A stretch of 64,000 nucleotides of DNA from Shimia aestuarii (GTDB lineage: Bacteria; Pseudomonadota; Alphaproteobacteria; Rhodobacterales; Rhodobacteraceae), in assembly GCF_900114635.1 (NCBI RefSeq), contig NZ_FOTQ01000001.1:62001-126000 (forward strand), written 5' to 3'. A program made the position numbers and the translations under genes. The notes under the pieces were generated by a model, which worked only from the letters and a program-made list of their open reading frames with translations, did not search any database and had not been told where the DNA came from. This document shows, one piece after another, positions 5,358 to 62,538 of the stretch; positions within the stretch are counted from its first letter, which is position 1; each line of letters opens with the position of its first letter.

Positions 5358-5420
5358 GGAAGGGGGCGCTGCCCCCGCCGCCGCGATGCGGCGACTCCCC
5401 CGGGGTATTTTTGGAAAAAG
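5358..5420 (+). repeat. Palindromic intergenic repeat, GGGGTATTT family
   Basis: It begins just after the fabI stop. GGGGGCGCTGCCCCC is followed by an inverted repeat around CCGCCGCGATGCGGCG and then CCCCCGGGGTATTTTTGG with an A-rich tail. The same modules in the same order occur at 60681-60830, and partial copies lie at 13866-13928 and 57618-57685. The hairpins may act as transcription ends between fabI and the convergent nitronate monooxygenase gene. Confidence 0.75.
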
Positions 5421-28591: not shown

Positions 28592-29494
28592 TCAGGCCGT
28601 AAGACCCTCCGGTTCCGCCAGCCCGTTTGCCCGGCAGCAAGCGGTGACCGTGTTGGCCAGCAGACAGGCGATCGTCATCGGACCGACCCCACCGGGCACC
28701 GGCGTGATTGCCCCGGCCACGGCGGCGGCGCTTTCGTAATGCACGTCGCCCACCAGCCGGGTCTTGCCCTCGCCTTTTTCCGGCGCATCAATCCGGTTGA
28801 TGCCAACGTCGATCACCGTCGCGCCGTCCTTGATCCAGTCGCCGGGCACCATTTCCGGGCGCCCCACCGCAGCCACCACGATATCGGCGCGCCGCACCAC
28901 ATCCGCCAGGTCCTTGGTCCGCGAATGCGCGATCGTGACCGTACAGCTGTCGCCCAGCAAAAGCTGCGCCATCGGTTTGCCCACGATGTTCGAGCGCCCG
29001 ATCACAACCGCATCCATGCCCGACAGGCTGCCGTGATGATCCCGCAGCATCATCAGGCAGCCCAGCGGCGTGCAGGGCACCATGCTTTTCTGCCCGGTGC
29101 CTAGCAGGCCGACATTGGAAATATGGAACCCGTCCACATCTTTTTCGGGCGCAATCGAGTTGATCACAAGGTCTTCATTCAGATGATCTGGAAGCGGAAG
29201 TTGAACAAGAATACCATGTACTTGCGGGTCATTGTTAAGCTGTTGGATCAGGTTGAGAAGATCCGCCTCCGCCGTGTCCGCCGCCAGCTTGTGTTCAAAG
29301 CTGTTCATGCCCACTTCCACGGTCTGTTTGCCTTTCGAGCGCACATAGACTTGGCTCGCGGGGTCTTCGCCGACCAGCACCACAGCCAGCCCCGGAGTGA
29401 TCCCGTTTTCTTCCTTGAGACGGGCCACATGCCCGGCCACCTTGTCGCGCACCTTGGCCGCAAAGGCCTTGCCGTCAATCACTTGCGCTGTCAT
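28592..29494 (-). CDS. folD: Bifunctional methylene-THF dehydrogenase/methenyl-THF cyclohydrolase
   Basis: A 300-residue FolD that interconverts 5,10-methylene-THF, methenyl-THF and 10-formyl-THF with NADP. All catalytic residues are present: Tyr50 and Lys54 in VYVRSKGK, Gln98 in LVQLPLP and Asp121 in EKDVDGFH. The NADP loop is [14 protein letters not shown] and the C-terminal signature is [13 protein letters not shown]. It is the last gene of a minus-strand C1 cluster with a FolD paralogue 12 bp upstream, then chorismate mutase and fhs. A terminator follows. Confidence 0.96.
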
Positions 29495-29506: not shown

Positions 29507-30400
29507 TTATACATCCGTCCGGGCATAGCTGTCCCGGTAATGGTCCATTTGCATCCGCGTCGCCAGCACGGCGTTTTTCATCAAGGTTGCGACGGTCACG
29601 GGGCCAACCCCGCCCGGTACGGGCGTGATCCATCCGGCCACTTCGGCGCAACTGTCAAAATCCGCGTCCCCCACCGTGCGCGGCCCGTCCGGCGTCTCGA
29701 CGCGGTTGATGCCGATGTCGATCACCGCCGCGCCGGGCTTGATCATGTCCCCGGTCACAAGGCCCGGCTTGCCCACGGCAACAAAGACCGCGTCCGCCGC
29801 GCGCGAATGCATGGCGACCGACCGCGTCATGTGGTGGCACACCGTCACCGTCGCGCCCAAGCCCATCATCAGGAAGGCAATCGGTTTGCCCACGATTTCG
29901 GAGTGGCCAATCACAGTGACGTTCAGCCCTTCCATCTGCAGGGGCAGCGTTTTCAGGATCTCCACCGACGCCACCGCCGTACAGGGGCCCAGTGCGAGGT
30001 CATTATAGACGATGTTGCCGATCGACGCGGGGTGCATGCCCTCGACATCCTTGAGCGGGTGTACGGCCTTTTGCAGCGCCTTCACCGGGATATGTTCGGG
30101 CAACGGGCGCTGGATGATGATCCCGTTGACACGCGGGTCATGGTTCAGCCCCTGAAGAATCCCGATCAACTGTTCCAGCGACGTCTCCGCCGGATAGCTG
30201 CGCGCCTCGAACTGCACCCCGGCGCTTTCCGCCTGTTTCTGCTGGTTGCGCACATAAAGCTCGGCCGCCGCCGTGTCACCAACGCTCACCGAAACCAGGC
30301 GGGGCGACCAGCCCAGCTCGCTCAGCTTCTGCGCCTCGGCCCTGACGTCTGATCGCAGCTCCGCTGCAACCGCTTTTCCGTCAATCACAACTGCGCGCAT
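29507..30400 (-). CDS. FolD paralogue lacking the cyclohydrolase lysine
   Basis: A 297-residue FolD-fold protein starting MRAVVIDGKAVAAEL. It keeps Tyr49, Gln97 (IIQRPLP), the NADP loop VIGHSEIVGKPIA and [13 protein letters not shown]. The catalytic Lys of FolD is replaced by Gln53 (YVRNQQKQ), and the catalytic Asp by Glu120 (LKDVEGMH). In FolD/MTHFD enzymes these two residues drive cyclohydrolase chemistry, and a Lys-to-Gln change abolishes it while leaving dehydrogenase activity. It may therefore be a dehydrogenase-only partner of the neighbouring FolD, or act on another pterin adduct. It lies in one cluster with folD and fhs. Confidence 0.85.
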   Translation of the reverse strand: MRAVVIDGKAVAAELRSDVRAEAQKLSELGWSPRLVSVSVGDTAAAELYVRNQQKQAESAGVQFEARSYPAETSLEQLIGILQGLNHDPRVNGIIIQRPLPEHIPVKALQKAVHPLKDVEGMHPASIGNIVYNDLALGPCTAVASVEILKTLPLQMEGLNVTVIGHSEIVGKPIAFLMMGLGATVTVCHHMTRSVAMHSRAADAVFVAVGKPGLVTGDMIKPGAAVIDIGINRVETPDGPRTVGDADFDSCAEVAGWITPVPGGVGPVTVATLMKNAVLATRMQMDHYRDSYARTDV

Positions 30401-41640: not shown

Positions 41641-42315
41641 TCAGGCGTCCAACTGGCGGCTGAGGATGGTGGCGAACTCGTCGGCAAAAGCTTCGTACCC
41701 GGCAATGATCCGATCACTGTCGGAACTCAGCTTGTTGTAGAAAATTACCGCCGGAATGGCCGCCAAAAGACCCAGCCCCGTCGCCAGAAGCGCCTCGGCA
41801 ATGCCGGGCGCGACGACCGCAAGGTTGGTGTTCTGCTGTGCCGCAATCTCGATAAAGGCGTTCATGATGCCCCAGACCGTGCCGAACAGCCCGACAAACG
41901 GCGCGGTCGACCCGACCGTGGCAAGGACCGGCAATCCCTTCTGCAGCACTTCGGCCTCTTTCACGATCGCCACGTCCATACTCCGGTCGATCCGGCTTGT
42001 CGCATTGGCAATCAGCCCCCCGTCCTGCCGGTGGCTGCGCTGCCACTCAACCATTCCGGCGGCAAATATCCGCTCCGAACGCCCCCGCGGCTCCGGCCCC
42101 AGCTCTTCGAAAAGCTGGTCCAGCGGCTCCCCGGACCAGAATGCCCGATCAAACCGCTTCGCCTCGCGCCGCGCGGCGCGGTAAAGGATGGTTTTCTGGA
42201 TGATCACCGACCACGACCAGAACGACGCCGCGATCAACAGCACCATCACCAGTTTCACGGTCAGCGTTGCGCGCGCGAAAAGCGCCCACATGGAAAAGTC
42301 GACTGCTGCTTCCAT
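41641..42315 (-). CDS. tolQ: Proton channel protein TolQ
   Basis: A 224-residue MotA/TolQ/ExbB protein with three membrane helices (about 17-38, 130-152 and 165-187). The conserved segments GLPVLATVGSTAPFVGLFGTVWGIMNAF and IAEALLATGLGLLAAIPAV contain the Thr and Ala/Gly residues lining the channel. It heads tolQRAB. The usual upstream partner ybgC is not adjacent; only a remnant of its 3' end lies at 42462-42500, and intact ybgC is 4 kb away. Confidence 0.95.
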   Translation of the reverse strand: MEAAVDFSMWALFARATLTVKLVMVLLIAASFWSWSVIIQKTILYRAARREAKRFDRAFWSGEPLDQLFEELGPEPRGRSERIFAAGMVEWQRSHRQDGGLIANATSRIDRSMDVAIVKEAEVLQKGLPVLATVGSTAPFVGLFGTVWGIMNAFIEIAAQQNTNLAVVAPGIAEALLATGLGLLAAIPAVIFYNKLSSDSDRIIAGYEAFADEFATILSRQLDA

Positions 42316-42461
42316 TCTGCCTGCTCTTTATTGCGGTCCCGTTATCGGGCCTTGTTTTGCAGCAAAACTAGCGCAGTTAAACGGGGAAAGCCATCAAATT
42401 GACGTCAGACGCGGAAAACCGCGCATGGCTTTACTCGCCGTGCACCAAGCGCGTGTAACGC

Positions 42462-42500
42462 CGCGCTCTCAATGCATCAAATGACGCACACCGCCGGTTT
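42462..42500 (-). pseudogene. Remnant of the ybgC 3' end (copy next to tolQ)
   Basis: CTCAATGCATCA, TGACGCAC and GCCGG are shared with the end of intact ybgC (46331 onward). In the ybgC frame the minus strand ends V-R-H-L-M-H-stop against V-R-Q-L-M-H-stop. Homology fades after about 13 codons. This is the position where ybgC would end if it were directly upstream of tolQ, as in related genomes. Confidence 0.6.
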
Positions 42501-42555
42501 CCGCTCAATTCGCGATCTTTCCACTTACGCCCTGCAATTGCGCCAAAAAGAGATT

Positions 42556-44274
42556 TCATTCCGGCAATCCCGCTTTCAGCAACGCCTCGATATCTGCGTT
42601 CCCGCCGTTCTTGACGCTGTAAAGCTGCGTCTTGGCCCACTCACGCACGGTAAAATTCGGGCGATACCTCAGCAAAAGCGCCGCGTGTTCGCGCGCCGCC
42701 GCCTCGTTTCCGATCTGCATGTAAACGATGACAAGGTCGATCAATCCGAACCCCTCGACCTTTGCGCCATACTTGCGAAACGCCGATATGGCCTCCTCGT
42801 ACCGCCCCACCGACCGCAGGGCAAAACCGTAAACGCCAAAGTAATACGGCGGATGCTTTGGGCACAGCCGCATCGCCCTTTCGGCGGTTCGGACGGCTTG
42901 GGCCTCTTCACCGTTAAATATCTGCGACAGGGCCAGCCGTATCGTGACCTCTGCATGGCTGGGGTTTATCTCCAGCGCGCGTTGAAAGTGGTTTTGCGCA
43001 CTCGTATTCTTACCTTCGATATTGTCGGCAAACCCCAGTACGCCATGGGCTTCGGCGCTCCTGTCATCAATACTAAGCGCCTGTTCCGCCCATTCCCGCA
43101 TCAAAGTCAGCGAACGCGCTCGTGACGGGCTGAACCCGTGTCGCGCATCAAGTCCATGCGTCAGGGCCAGCGTGGTCATCGCAGACGCGTAATCGGGATC
43201 AATAATCAGGGCCTTTTGCGCCATGATCCGCGCTGCCGCGCTGGTCTCCCGCGTGATGCTTCGCATTGCTTCATTCGCCCGAACCTGCAACTCCCATGCT
43301 CGCAGATCCCGAGTCCCCGAACCCCGCTCGAACGCCATCTCGCCTTCCAGGATTTCCCCGTGAAGCGCCTTGGCAATACTAAGTGAAATGTCATCCTGCA
43401 GGTCAAAGATATCTTCGAGCTCCCGGTCGTACCGGTCCGTCCAGACATGCTGCCGACTTGTCGCATCGAGCAACTGAGTGCTGATGCGCACCCGGTTTCC
43501 GACCTCTCGAATGCTACCTTCAAGAATATGGCTTGCCCCGAGTTCCATTCCAATTCGTCGAATGTCGACATCGCGCGCCGCATAGGCCGCCGAGGAATGG
43601 CGCGACACGACACACAGTCCAGGGACCTTGGACAAGGTCGTAATAATCTCTTCCGAGAGCCCCTCGGCAAGAAAAGACTGTCCCACGGCCCCAAGGGTTT
43701 CAAACTCAAGCACGGCAACTACCGGCTTGTCCTGTAGAGGATTTTCGACGCGCTGCTCCGCCCTGTCGGAAAGCCATCCGTACACCGTGACCGGCTTGCC
43801 GATATTCTTGAGGTTCATGGGACCGAAGTTAACGAAATCGGCCTCGACCCTGCCCTCGATATGCTCGAACACCGATTGCGAAATACACAGCCCGCCCGGC
43901 TCCGCGATGGCTTCCAGCCTCGCCGCGACATTCACGCCTTCGCCAAAAAGGTTGTTCACCTCCCGGATCACGTCACCAAGGTTGATACCACAGCGAAACA
44001 GGAACTCCGGGTCTTGCGAAGGCGTCCTGTCCGGATCCGACATTTGCGTCTGGATCGCCACGGCGCAGCGCACGGCTTGAACCGGGCTGTCAAACTCGGC
44101 GATGACGCTGTCCCCCGCGCTTCCGAAAATCCGGCCGCCACGTTCGCTGATGTGATGGTCCACCATGCCGCGGCATGCGCTCAGGTTGACGAGTGTTGCC
44201 TCTTCATTCCGGTGCATCAGCCGCGCGTATCCAACAACGTCCAGCGCGAGGATTGTCACAAGACGGCCTTCCAT
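42556..44274 (-). CDS. Class III adenylate/guanylate cyclase with TolB-like and TPR domains
   Basis: A 572-residue three-part protein. The N-terminal class III cyclase domain (about 5-185) has metal Asp in ILALDVVGYARLM and FGSAGDSVIAEF and the Asn/Arg pair in LFGEGVNVAARLEA. A TolB/FlgO-like N domain follows (about 195-315, LAEGLSEEIITTLSKV), then TPR repeats to the C-terminus. There is no transmembrane segment. ATG 44274 has GTGGAG upstream. It would make a cyclic nucleotide in response to an unknown signal. It is less GC-biased than the tol genes and is flanked by ybgC remnants, suggesting insertion. Confidence 0.85.
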   Translation of the reverse strand: MEGRLVTILALDVVGYARLMHRNEEATLVNLSACRGMVDHHISERGGRIFGSAGDSVIAEFDSPVQAVRCAVAIQTQMSDPDRTPSQDPEFLFRCGINLGDVIREVNNLFGEGVNVAARLEAIAEPGGLCISQSVFEHIEGRVEADFVNFGPMNLKNIGKPVTVYGWLSDRAEQRVENPLQDKPVVAVLEFETLGAVGQSFLAEGLSEEIITTLSKVPGLCVVSRHSSAAYAARDVDIRRIGMELGASHILEGSIREVGNRVRISTQLLDATSRQHVWTDRYDRELEDIFDLQDDISLSIAKALHGEILEGEMAFERGSGTRDLRAWELQVRANEAMRSITRETSAAARIMAQKALIIDPDYASAMTTLALTHGLDARHGFSPSRARSLTLMREWAEQALSIDDRSAEAHGVLGFADNIEGKNTSAQNHFQRALEINPSHAEVTIRLALSQIFNGEEAQAVRTAERAMRLCPKHPPYYFGVYGFALRSVGRYEEAISAFRKYGAKVEGFGLIDLVIVYMQIGNEAAAREHAALLLRYRPNFTVREWAKTQLYSVKNGGNADIEALLKAGLPE

Positions 44275-44406
44275 TTCGTGGCTCCACTTCAGGAGACAGC
44301 TTAGCAACGTAAAAGATCAAAACATAGACTTGTTATGATTGCGAAAACGGCGGGCACAGATACAAGAAAAACCGATAGTTCATCCTCGCTGAACGCCCCC
44401 GCGCCC

Positions 44407-44511
44407 TTAATGCATAAGCTGGCGCACCTTCGCCGGAAGCCGCACTGGCTGCCCGGCCTTGTTCATGCACACCGCCGTCACGTTGGCCGCCTTGCTCACA
44501 ACTGTCAGCTC
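44407..44511 (-). pseudogene. Remnant of the ybgC 3' end with a 69-bp deletion
   Basis: The minus strand encodes 34 residues plus stop that match the last 57 residues of YbgC in frame: ELTVVSKAANVTA then VCMNKAGQPVRLPAKVRQLMH. Compared with intact ybgC exactly 23 codons (69 bp) are missing, between two GCCGTCAC repeats at 46398-46405 and 46467-46474, so deletion by recombination between short repeats is likely. No start codon or N-terminal part is present. It lies between the cyclase and tannase-family genes. Confidence 0.85.
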
Positions 44512-44518
44512 AAACCTT

Positions 44519-46102
44519 TCACTGCGGAACTTGGCAACTGAAGCTACCGGCGTCGTTCGGGTCGCCAGCGTCATCGTAGGTTACCACCGCGGGATGAGCG
44601 CAGATGATCCGCCCTCCCTGTCCGGTCGGCTCGCGTGTCACCGGATGCACATAAGGCGCGGCGAGTTGATTGGGGGCCACGCCTGTATCCAACCATGCTA
44701 CGAGCGCTGCGACATAATCTGTGCCGTCCGGTCCCGGCCCAAACCGGCAGTGGGTGACCCCCGGGCGCACAAACAAGCGCACGTCGTCACGGGCACTCGG
44801 GTCCATCTCCAGCACCTTCTCGTAATAATCTATGGTTCCGTAAGGCGACAAAGATCCATCCATCCAACCGTTGTCGAGGATCAGCTTGCCGCCGTTGGCC
44901 CTGAACGCGGAGAGGTCAGGATTGTCCGCATCAAGCGTAGGACCAACGCGCGCGGCGTGGTGCGCAAAATCCGAAAAATCATACCCCGCGTAGGTCCAAT
45001 CAGGATCACTGTAGAAAAAGTTCTTCATCAATTGTGAAGAAAAGCCCCAGGTCGCGTTCGGGATCGGTGGGGCTTCGTACGCAACACCCTCCTCGTCCCC
45101 GTCACCCGGATGGAAATCCAGAGCAGCGCCTTCCACATAGCCTCCCGTATTCCAGGTCGACCATCCCAGCGGGTTGCCGGGCAATTCCACGCCCATGGGC
45201 ATACCGGGCCAGGAAGTGCCCCCGAACTCCACCTCGCGGTAGAGATCCTCTGCCACACGAACTTGCTCTTCGCTGAGACATTGATTTGTTTCGCCTGCGC
45301 CGCATTGCAGGCTTGAAACCTCAAAATCGCATTGTCGCGGATCATTCAGAATCCCGTCCTCAAGCCCGTCAATCGCGTTGCATCGCGCCATGATCGCCTT
45401 TCCAATGAGAGCCTGCGCATCCGCGTCGATCACTGGCAAGGAAATCTGGTTCGGATCCGGGTACATGTTCATGGCGTCATAGGTCCACCGACCGGCCATT
45501 TCCTTCGTCCAGGAGTATGCCGGAGCACCTGCATAGATCCCCTCGAACAGGTCGGGAGAGCGCTGTGCGAGCATCATGGCCTGCCCACCACCTCGAGAAC
45601 AGCCAAAGAAGAGGTTACGCTGGATCTCCGCCCCATAATATGCGGTGATGATCGCCTTTGAGACGACCGCAGTTCTGTGCACCGCCAGAAATCCGAAATT
45701 GACCTGCCGTTCGAGGTTGTTAAGCGCCCAGGTTGCCACGATGTTGTTACCCTTGTGGCCTGTGTCTGTTGTTACTGTCGCCCATCCGTCCTCAAGGATG
45801 TTCGCCAGACCCAAGACGGCGTTATTGAAATCACCGGAGAACCCTCCGCCTCCGCCCATGACGAATTTCCCGTTCCACGCGTCGGGGAGCAGCAACTCAA
45901 ATCCGATTTCGGTGCCGATTTCGCCAACGACACGGCAATGCGCGGCCGGGCTTGACGACGCCTCCGCGCTTACGATCCGCATGTCGGGAACAATTGGAAT
46001 GGTGTCGACGCTGCACTCGGCGGCGCCGGATCCTGATGTCAGTAAAGTGCCCACGAGGGCGAAACCGGTCGTTTTGGCAAGGAGTTGTTTGGCGCGCGTC
46101 AT
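44519..46102 (-). CDS. Tannase/feruloyl esterase family protein, secreted
   Basis: A 527-residue alpha/beta hydrolase. The signal peptide is about residues 1-29 (LAKTTGFALVGTLLTSGSGAA). The family CS-D-HC pattern is complete: the nucleophile in FFGCSRGGGQAMM and the His in GVTHCRFGPG each sit next to a Cys that forms the family disulfide, with an acidic residue between. Members hydrolyse gallate, ferulate or similar aromatic esters outside the cytoplasm. CGGAGG lies before the ATG at 46102. Its stop is 8 bp from a ybgC remnant, and base composition is less GC-rich than ybgC or tol genes, so acquisition is likely. Confidence 0.87.
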   Translation of the reverse strand: MTRAKQLLAKTTGFALVGTLLTSGSGAAECSVDTIPIVPDMRIVSAEASSSPAAHCRVVGEIGTEIGFELLLPDAWNGKFVMGGGGGFSGDFNNAVLGLANILEDGWATVTTDTGHKGNNIVATWALNNLERQVNFGFLAVHRTAVVSKAIITAYYGAEIQRNLFFGCSRGGGQAMMLAQRSPDLFEGIYAGAPAYSWTKEMAGRWTYDAMNMYPDPNQISLPVIDADAQALIGKAIMARCNAIDGLEDGILNDPRQCDFEVSSLQCGAGETNQCLSEEQVRVAEDLYREVEFGGTSWPGMPMGVELPGNPLGWSTWNTGGYVEGAALDFHPGDGDEEGVAYEAPPIPNATWGFSSQLMKNFFYSDPDWTYAGYDFSDFAHHAARVGPTLDADNPDLSAFRANGGKLILDNGWMDGSLSPYGTIDYYEKVLEMDPSARDDVRLFVRPGVTHCRFGPGPDGTDYVAALVAWLDTGVAPNQLAAPYVHPVTREPTGQGGRIICAHPAVVTYDDAGDPNDAGSFSCQVPQ

Positions 46103-46330
46103 CGCAGCCTCCGGAGTTCTGGGTCCGGTCCATAGGAACATGCGAAAGCACTTGTCGCAAGTTCAGGAGGTTTCACGTCCGTTCCGGCATTTCCGCCTAG
46201 GATGACTCATGGCCCAATATTCATCAACAAGGTTGCCCCGACATCCGAGCACTTCGTTGCAGGTATCGCTTGGCACGTCCGAACACCGGCTTTCGCCCTC
46301 TCGACCACACGCAACACATGCCCCGCGCCC

Positions 46331-46717
46331 TCAATGCATCAGCTGACGCACCTTCGCCGGAAGCCGCACCGGCTGCCCGGCCTCGTTCATGCACACCGCC
46401 GTCACCATGGCGTGAAACAGCACCTCTTCGCCCCGTTTCACCCATTGCTCCATCACCAGCCGCGCCGCCGTCACGTTGGCCACCTCTGTCACCACGATAA
46501 GCTCATCATCAAGCTTGGCCGACCCGAGATAATCCGCTTCTACCCGGCGCACAGCAAAGACGATCCCTTCCGCCTTCATCTCGTGCTGATCAAGCCCGAT
46601 CTCGCGCACCCATTCGCTGCGCCCGCGTTCAATGAACTTGAGGTAGTTCGCGTAATACACGATCCCCCCCATATCGGTGTCCTCGTAATAGACGCGGATC
46701 GGCAGTGTGTAGGTCAT
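46331..46717 (-). CDS. ybgC: Tol-Pal-associated acyl-CoA thioesterase YbgC
   Basis: A 128-residue hot-dog thioesterase. The active-site segment is RVYYEDTDMGGIVYYANYLK with Asp and Tyr, typical of YbgC, followed by FIERGRSEWVREIG. Substrates are short or medium acyl-CoAs or acyl-ACP tied to phospholipid metabolism. In most proteobacteria the gene lies directly before tolQ; here two foreign-looking genes and two partial copies of its own 3' end separate it from tolQ. The start ATG at 46717 gives MTYTLPIRVYYEDT. Confidence 0.93.
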   Translation of the reverse strand: MTYTLPIRVYYEDTDMGGIVYYANYLKFIERGRSEWVREIGLDQHEMKAEGIVFAVRRVEADYLGSAKLDDELIVVTEVANVTAARLVMEQWVKRGEEVLFHAMVTAVCMNEAGQPVRLPAKVRQLMH

Positions 46718-46779: not shown

Positions 46780-48312
46780 CTATCCCAACCCCACCCCGGC
46801 AAAGCGCACGCCGCTCAGCTCGGCCATCTCCTTCTTCCACGTGGTGATGTCCTCGCGCCGGAAATCCGACAGGCTGTCATGCCCACAGGCCCGCGCGAGC
46901 ACCTGCATCAACTCGACACTGGCCCCGAAATAGCGCGCCAGTTTCTCGGCCCCACCCTGCACATCCAACAGCTTGCGCAGCTCCGGCTTTTGCGTGGCAA
47001 TCCCCACCGGGCAATTGTTCGAGTTGCACATCCGCGCCGCGATACAGCCCACGGCCTGCATCGCCGCATTGCTCACCGCAATCGCATCCGCCCCCAGCGC
47101 CATCGCCTTCACGAAATCTTCGGCCACTCGCAGCCCGCCGGTGATCACCAATGTCACCTCGCGCCCCGCCCTCGCGTCCAGATGCCGCCGCGCCCGCGCC
47201 AGCGCCGGAATGGTCGGCACCGAGATATGGTCACGGAAAATCAAAGGCGCCGCGCCCGTGCCTCCGCCCCGACCATCCAGAATGATGTAATCGGCCCCCG
47301 CGGCCAGCGCGAAATCGATGTCATCCTCGATATGATTGGCCGACAGCTTGAACCCGATCGGAATGCCGCCCGAGCGTTCGCGCACCTGATCCGCGATCCG
47401 TGCAAAATCTTCGGGGCCTTGCAAATCCGGGAAGGTACTTGGCGAAATCGCCGCCTGCCCCGGCTCCAGCCCGCGCACTTGCGCGATCTTGCCCTGCACC
47501 TTCTCGCCCGGCAAATGCCCCCCGGTCCCGGTCTTGGCCCCTTGCCCGCCTTTGAAATGAAACGCCTGCACCTTCTCCACAAGGTCGATATCCCAGCCAA
47601 ACCGTGCCGAGGCCAGTTCATAGAAGTACCGCGAATTCTCCGCCTGCTCCTCGGGCAGCATGCCCCCTTCACCCGAACAGATTCCGGTCCCGGCCATCTC
47701 CGCGCCACGTGCCAGAGCGGTCTTGGCCTCTTCCGAAAGCGCCCCAAAACTCATGTCCGAAACGAACAGCGGAATATCCAACACCAAAGGCTTCTTTGCA
47801 CGCGGCCCGATCACCACCTGCGTCGCCACCGCGGCCTCATCCAACAGCGGCTTGCGCGCCATCTGCGCGGGCAGGATCTGGATATCGTCCCAATGCGGCA
47901 GATCATTGCGTGGCACGCCCATCGCGCCCATCTCGCCGTGGTGCCCCAGCTTGCTCAGCCCGTCCCGCGCCAGCGCATGAATGCGCGCCACGGTCGGCTC
48001 TTCCGGGGTCGGCTCTGCCTGCGGCACGTCCGAGGACGGTTTGGGTGCCGGGTCGCCCACCTCGGCGTCTCCCAACCGCGCATGCGTCCCGTCGCAAAAC
48101 GGCGCGTTGGCCGTGCCCTTGCACTGGCACAGGGTCGCGGCCCCATCGTTCTCAGCGGTGAATTTCAACGGGGTGATATCGGTGCCGCGATGGCTGCCGT
48201 CACAAAAAGGCTGGTTCTTGGACCGCCCGCAGCGGCACCAATGATAATCCTTGCCCTTCTCCAGATCGACCTTGGTGGGTGTCTTGGCGGCAATGATGGG
48301 CACGTCGTTCAT
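46780..48312 (-). CDS. Twin CDGSH iron-sulfur domain fused to a glutamate-synthase-like FMN domain
   Basis: A 510-residue fusion. Two CDGSH-type [2Fe-2S] motifs come first (CRCGRSKNQPFCDGSH about 26-41 and CQCKGTANAPFCDGTH about 63-78). A short Pro/Glu linker leads to a GltB-like FMN barrel with FVSDMSFGALSEEAKTAL, GTGICSGEGGMLPEE, ILDGRGGGTGAAPL and the cysteine cluster CIAARMCNSNNCPVGIAT (3Fe-4S type). There is no glutaminase domain, so it is not a classical glutamate synthase. GGAGG is upstream of ATG 48312. It is probably an electron-transfer oxidoreductase of unknown substrate. Confidence 0.85.
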   Translation of the reverse strand: MNDVPIIAAKTPTKVDLEKGKDYHWCRCGRSKNQPFCDGSHRGTDITPLKFTAENDGAATLCQCKGTANAPFCDGTHARLGDAEVGDPAPKPSSDVPQAEPTPEEPTVARIHALARDGLSKLGHHGEMGAMGVPRNDLPHWDDIQILPAQMARKPLLDEAAVATQVVIGPRAKKPLVLDIPLFVSDMSFGALSEEAKTALARGAEMAGTGICSGEGGMLPEEQAENSRYFYELASARFGWDIDLVEKVQAFHFKGGQGAKTGTGGHLPGEKVQGKIAQVRGLEPGQAAISPSTFPDLQGPEDFARIADQVRERSGGIPIGFKLSANHIEDDIDFALAAGADYIILDGRGGGTGAAPLIFRDHISVPTIPALARARRHLDARAGREVTLVITGGLRVAEDFVKAMALGADAIAVSNAAMQAVGCIAARMCNSNNCPVGIATQKPELRKLLDVQGGAEKLARYFGASVELMQVLARACGHDSLSDFRREDITTWKKEMAELSGVRFAGVGLG

Positions 48313-48412
48313 GAGATCCTCCCCGAATGCATGATGCACTCACGAGACCACGATGCCTCACGCGATCAAAGCCTTATCCCCGCACAACGCCTGCGCGCTG
48401 GCGCGAAAGTGA

Positions 48413-57617: not shown

Positions 57618-57685
57618 TTTTGCCAAAAATACCTCTGGGGGTGAATTGAGCCGTCAGGCTCAAGAGGGGGCAACGCCCCCTTCCG
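57618..57685. repeat. Palindromic intergenic repeat, partial copy
   Basis: ATTTTGCCAAAAATACCTC is followed by GGGGGTGAATTGAGCCG, TCAGGCTCAAGAG and the hairpin GGGGGC-AAC-GCCCCC. The GGGGTGAATTG(A/G)GCCG and CAGGCTCAA modules match 60788-60815. It separates the convergent yeeE and priA genes and probably ends one or both transcripts. Confidence 0.7.
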
Positions 57686-60680: not shown

Positions 60681-60830
60681 CCGGCAAGGGGGCGCTGCCC
60701 CCACCGCAGCAAGCTGCGCCTCCCCCCGGGGGTATTTCACACCATTGAGAAGACGCACCTGCCCTTTCTCAATGGTTCGAAATACCACGGGGTGAATTGG
60801 GCCGACAGGCTCAACAGGGGCAGCGCCCCA
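60681..60830. repeat. Palindromic intergenic repeat, full-length copy
   Basis: The most complete copy. It contains GGGGGCGCTGCCCCC (60688-60702), a hairpin GCAGC-AA-GCTGC and CCCCCCGGGGGTATTTC. Nested inverted repeats follow: GGTATTTC (60731-60738) with GAAATACC (60779-60786), and ATTGAGAA (60744-60751) with TTCTCAAT (60766-60773). Then come GGGGTGAATTGGGCCG, ACAGGCTCAAC and GGGGCAGCGCCCC (60817-60829). It starts right after the transaldolase gene and contains no coding sequence. Confidence 0.85.
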
Positions 60831-60916
60831 TTTTCTCTAAACTCCAACAAAAAAAATTGCGGCATTCGTGCGGGGCCTCTGCTATGGTCGCGCCAACGAC
60901 CAGAAACGGCATCACC

Positions 60917-61627: not shown

Positions 61628-62538
61628 TCAGCCCGGCAGCCACAAGCGCCCTTGACGATTTCCTCGCACAGCGTGCGGCCCTGTCCGGCGCATCCGAGAA
61701 TACGCTCAAAGCCTATCGCAGCGATCTTCTCGACTATCTCGTGTTCATGACCCGACACAAAGGCGGCCCCCAGGGGATCGCCCCACTGACCGCGGTCTCG
61801 GTCTCAGATATGCGCGCGTGGATGGCCCATGCGCGCGGCACCGGGCTTGGCGCACGCTCCCTGTCGCGCAAGCTCTCTGCCGTCAAAAGCTTTTACCGGT
61901 GGCTGGCCGAACACGAAGTCTTCGATCCAACTGCGGTCCTGTCGGCCCGCGCCCCCAAGTATCAGCGCAAACTGCCCCGCCCCCTGCCCGAAGACGCCGC
62001 CCGCGCCGTTCTGGACACGGTTGAACTGCAATCGCAAAAGGACTGGATCGGTGCCCGCGATACGGCCGTCATGACCCTGCTTTATGGCTGTGGCTTGCGC
62101 ATTTCCGAGGCGCTGGGCCTCACCGGCAAGGACGCGCCGCTTGCGCCGACCTTGCGGATTCGTGGCAAGGGCGGCAAGGAACGGCTGGTTCCGGTTCTGG
62201 ACGCCGCGCGCGACGCCGTTGACACCTATCTGCGCCTCTGTCCCTATCCGCAGGAACCGGACAGCCCCTTGTTTCGCGGCGCGCGCGGTGGTGCGCTCAA
62301 TCCGCGCCAGGTGCAGAAAGTGATGGAGCAGACCCGTCTGCAACTTGGCTTGCCCGCCTCGGCCACGCCGCACGCGATGCGGCACAGCTTTGCCACTCAC
62401 CTCCTGTCAGCCGGGGGTGATCTGCGCGCGATCCAGGAATTGCTGGGCCACGCGTCGCTGTCCACCACCCAGACCTACACCGAGGTGGACAGCACGCGGC
62501 TTATGGAAATCTACAACCGCACCCACCCCAAGGCGTGA
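61624..62538 (+). CDS. xerC: Tyrosine recombinase XerC
   Basis: A 304-residue site-specific recombinase that resolves chromosome dimers at dif with XerD. The N-terminal SAM-like core-binding domain has TLKAYRSDLLDYLVFM. Catalytic residues are Arg in YGCGLRISEALGL, Lys in RGKGGKERLVPV, the HAMRHSFATHLL box, LLGHASLSTTQTY and the nucleophile Tyr in the latter. The start is GTG 61624, overlapping the DUF484 stop. The housekeeping neighbourhood identifies it as XerC rather than a mobile-element integrase. Confidence 0.93.
   Translation: MISPAATSALDDFLAQRAALSGASENTLKAYRSDLLDYLVFMTRHKGGPQGIAPLTAVSVSDMRAWMAHARGTGLGARSLSRKLSAVKSFYRWLAEHEVFDPTAVLSARAPKYQRKLPRPLPEDAARAVLDTVELQSQKDWIGARDTAVMTLLYGCGLRISEALGLTGKDAPLAPTLRIRGKGGKERLVPVLDAARDAVDTYLRLCPYPQEPDSPLFRGARGGALNPRQVQKVMEQTRLQLGLPASATPHAMRHSFATHLLSAGGDLRAIQELLGHASLSTTQTYTEVDSTRLMEIYNRTHPKA

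Follow-up and report, generated by a model that had tools for sequence, protein, structure and literature searches.

The DNA analysed here (the window, a whole stretch of 64,000 nt) lies inside a 1.57-Mb contig of the Shimia aestuarii genome, a 4.23-Mb draft in 27 contigs. It carries tol-pal genes, and the ybgC stop codon is separated from tolQ by 4015 nt. Read 5′ to 3′ on the minus strand, the order is ybgC, an esterase gene, a partial ybgC 3′ end (tail B), a cyclase/TPR gene, a second partial ybgC 3′ end (tail C) and tolQ. The features are as follows.

46331–46717, minus strand: intact ybgC, encoding a 128 aa tol-pal acyl-CoA thioesterase (TIGR02799, 158.2 bits, cut-off 141.35; Pfam 4HBT_2)
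46142–46330, minus strand: spacer between ybgC and the esterase gene; its starting 10 nt are the same as in the flank of tail B, and the rest is without significant similarity
44519–46141, minus strand: esterase cargo gene, tannase/feruloyl-esterase family (PF07519, 293.9 bits)
44397–44512, minus strand: tail B, a ybgC 3′ end, 5′-truncated and internally deleted
44308–44396, minus strand: spacer between tail B and the cyclase/TPR gene, without significant similarity to the other spacers
42556–44307, minus strand: cyclase/TPR cargo gene, with a class III nucleotide cyclase domain (PF00211) and TPR_19
42461–42489, minus strand: tail C, a 29-nt relic of a ybgC 3′ end in the native position
42316–42460, minus strand: native ybgC–tolQ intergenic DNA, aligning with the corresponding gap of the closest relative in the genus set, genome G007 (z 37)
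41641–42315, minus strand: tolQ (PF01618)

Once the inserts are set aside, the tol-pal order ybgC, tolQ, tolR, tolA, tolB is intact (tolA and tolB were assigned from gene place and comparison with relatives, the other tol genes from the annotation of the window). Each insert is shorter than 2 kb and carries one cargo gene. As called, the esterase is 540 aa long, with an alternative second ATG at 46102, and the cyclase/TPR protein is 583 aa, with an ATG at 44274. Directly upstream of ybgC, at 46780–48339, is a CDGSH and glutamate-synthase-like gene that is patchy among relatives, occurring at 2 of the 80 named Rhodobacteraceae loci and 4 of the 24 same-genus loci introduced below (about 1.5 kb upstream was covered in the genus set).

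The coding part of tail B (44407–44511, 105 nt including the stop) translates as ELTVVSKAANVTA-VCMNKAGQPVRLPAKVRQLMH-stop. It matches ybgC codons 72–84 at 31 of 39 nt and the last 22 codons with the stop at 61 of 66 nt, and between these two halves the intact gene has 23 extra codons (69 nt). Copies of GTGACGGCG bound the missing 69 nt at both places in intact ybgC, the pattern expected of a deletion between short repeats. By BLASTN within the window, tail B matches ybgC in a 91-nt piece (E 3e-33) and a 41-nt piece (E 6e-5). By eye, the identity between tail B and intact ybgC continues for 10 nt beyond the stop. Set against shuffles, these 10 identical nucleotides have a p value of 0.105, and none of nine local comparisons of the DNA past the stop was significant (lowest p 0.053).

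Tail C matches the gene end at 26 of 29 nt (E 6e-5, BLASTN within the window). The first-pass annotation had given it 39 nt; its identity as a ybgC relic was borne out, and the length demonstrated is 29 nt, since beyond this, in the upstream direction, the sequence resembles ybgC no more than controls do. An upstream extension of tail C by way of a second deletion was tried and rejected, as 199 of 300 and 72 of 300 control 75-mers scored equally well. A 29-mer spanning the ybgC stop has three matches in the window at ≤3 mismatches and none in 100 shuffles, and at ≤6 mismatches on both strands of 1.2 Mb of the contig it finds exactly the three ybgC-end sites. Both tails are thus genuine ybgC ends. 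This and the layout confirm the first-pass description of three ybgC 3′ ends and two inserted genes between ybgC and tolQ, and the tail matches are better than chance. In the coordinates of the parent gene, tail B starts 174 nt and tail C 21 nt before the gene end. With regard to integron gene cassettes, which carry an attC site after each gene, the folding of the tails is no better than that of shuffled sequences (z 0.11 and 1.46), and there were no Rfam matches at gathering scores and no tRNA.

In related genomes the site is empty. The gene ybgC directly precedes tolQ in all 24 other same-genus genomes, a set that includes named Shimia species, and in all 80 named Rhodobacteraceae loci, with gaps of 107–369 nt. 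The named loci are the best 80 of 571 encoding a relative in a species-level genome collection; as ten genomes are common to the two sets, about 94 species were covered. Since the site is empty in 24/24 and 80/80 cases, both inserts look private to the lineage. The inserted gene order was absent from every relative compared, and none of the genomes examined had a single insertion or different cargo at this site. Self-repeats within the 104 relative loci numbered seven at E ≤ 1e-5, none touching ybgC, at a setting where a 29-nt tail would fall below detection. A joined ybgC and TolQ query had matches in 385 of 394 genomes. The upstream order ruvB, a 232-aa gene and ybgC is kept in relatives, which indicates that ybgC was not relocated. 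Thiosulfatihalobacter marinus (NZ_JAECRZ010000001.1), taken as genome G007, has the nearest ybgC among the best 80 of 571, at 92% identity.

The distance from the tail C stop to tolQ, 153 nt, falls inside the range of gaps seen in relatives, and the DNA between them aligns with the ybgC–tolQ gap of G007. Given this spacing and alignment, tail C is best read as the original ybgC end, with its stop in the native position. A block conserved in the genus alignment near 42360–42398 is promoter-like by eye and may have a promoter role; a sigma-70 scan did not call it. At locus L040 of the genus relative G001, the gap is longer and a short palindrome-like stretch follows the ybgC stop.

The cargo genes differ from their surroundings in composition, with GC3 of 0.67–0.68 vs 0.76–0.80 in seven neighbours. 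Three of the 24 same-genus relatives encode, elsewhere in their genomes, esterase homologues that are 70–77% identical, and across the family 42 of 393 other genomes have matches at E ≤ 0.001 (best 76% identical); G007 has none at this threshold. For the cyclase/TPR protein, one of these 24 relatives has a homologue at 67% identity, and the best match in G007 is 33% identical. The same query gave 26 matches in its own genome, a number that includes fragments of a single gene, indicating that such genes are common there. In nine stretches around relatives of the cargo genes, DNA similarity to the interval in the window is essentially limited to the cargo genes themselves, with no match to ybgC or the tails at E ≤ 1e-3. 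On plasmids, the two cargo proteins had homologues in 163 and 619 records, all below 60% identity, and the sole PADLOC result was a low-scoring PycC hit to the cyclase (22.6 bits). The data support the view that two foreign genes split the normally adjacent ybgC and tolQ.

Whether the tails stem from the resident gene or from elsewhere was assessed by comparison with the relatives, two of which (L046 and L050) were excluded for length differences from the polarisation, the tree, the 3′/5′ ratio and the permutation tests. Tail B differs from its own ybgC at 13 of 105 nt, from the next best, G007, at 24, and is closer to its own ybgC than to any of the 24 relatives (L046 being out of register); the own gene and G007 differ at 15. 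When the 13 differences between tail B and its own gene are polarised with G007, nine fall on tail B, none on the intact gene and four are unresolved (sign test 0.004). Polarised instead by the majority of 22 relatives, seven sites favour the intact gene, five tail B and one neither; some tail B states are thus the commonest in the genus, and the G007-based reading is not clear-cut. When the own ybgC, tail B and 22 relatives are placed in one tree, tail B joins the own gene with UFBoot 83 and has the longer branch of the two (0.149 vs 0.031). The AU test gave p values of 0.76, 0.33 and 0.056, and the alternatives of own gene with G007 without tail B (0.33) and of tail B with G007 (0.056) were not rejected. 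Across the 29-mer, singletons are absent from the intact gene and number three in each of tails B and C, all six differences being private to one tail or the other, as expected if the resident gene was the template for both. Tail B shares the LMH end of its own ybgC, which among the relatives occurs only in G007. Tail B most likely descends from the lineage's own ybgC and later decayed, and the tail data fit decayed resident copies, not a distant donor.

The intact gene is somewhat uneven in its divergence from G007: at cut 213, the 5′ part has 35 differences in 213 nt and the 3′ part has 17 in 174 (binomial p 0.018). With cuts at 213 and 260, this pair has the lowest ratio of 3′ to 5′ divergence among 253 pairs, whereas with the cut at 306 it falls at the 5.5th percentile. 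For a G007-like 3′ direction, permutation of five chosen triples gave 0.062, 0.58, 1.0, 1.0 and 0.17, and in the opposite direction the lowest value was 0.031. At most, these figures hint at an imported ybgC 3′ end.

A search for recombination machinery found no tyrosine integrase in the inserts (whole-genome PF00589 search and Pfam scan of both cargo proteins); PF00589 had 12 matches genome-wide, the nearest at 61993–62493 of the window. A Ku gene was not found, making Ku-dependent end joining unlikely. There are 25 direct repeats at E ≤ 1e-6 in 1.2 of the 4.23 Mb, one of which is tail B; judged by their overlap with ORFs, the remaining 24 do not look like displaced gene ends, in a survey that would miss tails the size of C. 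No ybgC was confirmed on viral contigs, and a search of open-access papers turned up no description of DNA inserted between ybgC and tolQ. Other repeats were noted in passing. Within the window there are dispersed short repeats of 53–56 nt, 84–85% identical (57627–57682 and 60780–60832; 5360–5410 and 60686–60737), and a roughly 180-nt direct repeat (28668–28849 and 29589–29758; 69% identity, 740 nt apart). At locus L228, a 333-nt direct repeat, 97.6% identical (1188–1519 and 2129–2461; G000:C18:581188–581519 and 582129–582461), has copies about 610 nt apart and no clear gene end there.

The history that we favour, with confidence a little above even, is that of two successive insertions, private to the lineage, just past the ybgC stop, by recombinase-independent recombination that copied the ybgC end. 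In the first, the cyclase/TPR gene would have entered and the native ybgC end, now tail C, would have stayed beside tolQ; in the second, the esterase gene would have entered and a second, 5′-truncated end, tail B, would have been left. After each event an intact ybgC would stand upstream and a spare 3′ end downstream, and the spare ends would presumably decay once copied. The nesting and the shorter tail C suggest this order of events, cyclase and then esterase. The stepwise insertion proposed in the first-pass annotation is supported in this respect, tail C being the shorter relic, at the native position. The two copies of the ybgC end may stem either from one-sided homologous recombination combined with illegitimate joining, or from a switch of template back into ybgC. 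The former requires a donor whose cargo is linked to ybgC, and none was present in the 104 loci. Template switching is put forward as a suggestion: it would need neither integrase nor donor, and would leave two events at one gene unexplained. For homology-facilitated illegitimate recombination, the layout is consistent with homology at one end, and no dedicated recombinase was apparent from the search for tyrosine recombinases and the Pfam matches of the cargo proteins. Counting against a non-specific mechanism are the two events at one gene end, with no displaced gene end apparent among the other 24 repeats in 1.2 Mb.

A recombinase-independent mechanism is preferred over an integrase route with modest confidence, and this is the least certain part of the reconstruction. 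Under the integrase route, the main rival, two elements would have integrated site-specifically at the ybgC 3′ end, each bringing a replacement end, and their integrases would later have been lost. The architecture is like that of e14 at icd, with an intact gene and a displaced 3′ end across the insert, and such integration would account for two events at one gene end. It would also suit the identity with the intact gene, which by eye breaks off 8–10 nt beyond the stop codon in each of the two comparisons, and the closeness of the 3′ part of intact ybgC to G007. Against this, neither insert holds a tyrosine integrase, the start points of the tails are unequal (although tail C may be eroded), and the mosaic hint is weak, as seen at cut 306 and in the permutation values. 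Taken together, we consider site-specific integration possible but unlikely. The two events at one place would likewise be explained by a recombinase-free cassette that used the end of a housekeeping gene as its attachment site. The first insertion would create direct repeats of the ybgC end around the cargo, enabling the cargo and one ybgC end to exit as a circle, which would then re-enter the ybgC of other cells by homologous recombination. We rate this as very improbable.

Two further explanations concern the tails themselves. The first-pass annotation had allowed that they might be xenologous, and a distant donor could have replaced the locus with its ybgC and neighbours, leaving foreign tails. 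The 13 differences between tail B and the intact gene, five at sites where tail B has the commonest genus state, would be in keeping with this, but tail B is nearest to its own ybgC and groups with it on a longer branch (other placements not being rejected), the LMH end is otherwise confined to G007, and the gene order upstream is the conserved one. A clearly foreign origin of the tails is accordingly not borne out, and we hold it to be very unlikely. Chance similarity or misassembly could be raised on account of tail C, at a mere 29 nt, but the shuffles and the 1.2-Mb search stand against it, and the ybgC-end copies are diverged and lie inside the 1.57-Mb contig, so that this explanation is scarcely credible.

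The insertion pattern is a variant of a known route of DNA uptake, and both the favoured and the integrase mechanisms have precedents. In PMC6379469, e14 is described as a 15-kb prophage that inserts by site-specific recombination at E. coli icd and displaces a 163-bp icd end. As at icd, the ybgC gene end is intact with a displaced copy beyond the insert, and the 163 bp is similar to the 174-nt parent span of tail B. Unlike the prophage as described there, the ybgC inserts each comprise less than 2 kb with a single cargo gene, lack a tyrosine integrase and are stacked in a pair. In Vibrio cholerae, T6SS effector genes undergo serial displacement, for which PMC5361080 proposes a process resembling homology-facilitated illegitimate recombination. 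There too, older pieces of genes, a 3′ end among them, are pushed downstream by successive insertions at the same place. The Vibrio cargo, in that account, consists of effector–immunity modules behind a conserved upstream anchor, whereas the cargo at the ybgC locus is unrelated to ybgC, and no donor with cargo linked to ybgC was found. PMC5361080 also mentions Rhs C-terminal displacement, where orphaned 3′ regions are strung behind a constant gene as they are here, although the Rhs regions are alternative domains and those at ybgC are one and the same end in decay.

The locus shows that the gap between ybgC and tolQ accepts insertions provided that ybgC retains its end and the DNA directly before tolQ persists. 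Single genes flanked by ybgC ends, if present in other genomes, would suggest an integrase-free, cassette-like mode of capture. The locus may be viewed as a record of two gene acquisitions in a conserved envelope operon, with their scars at different stages of decay.
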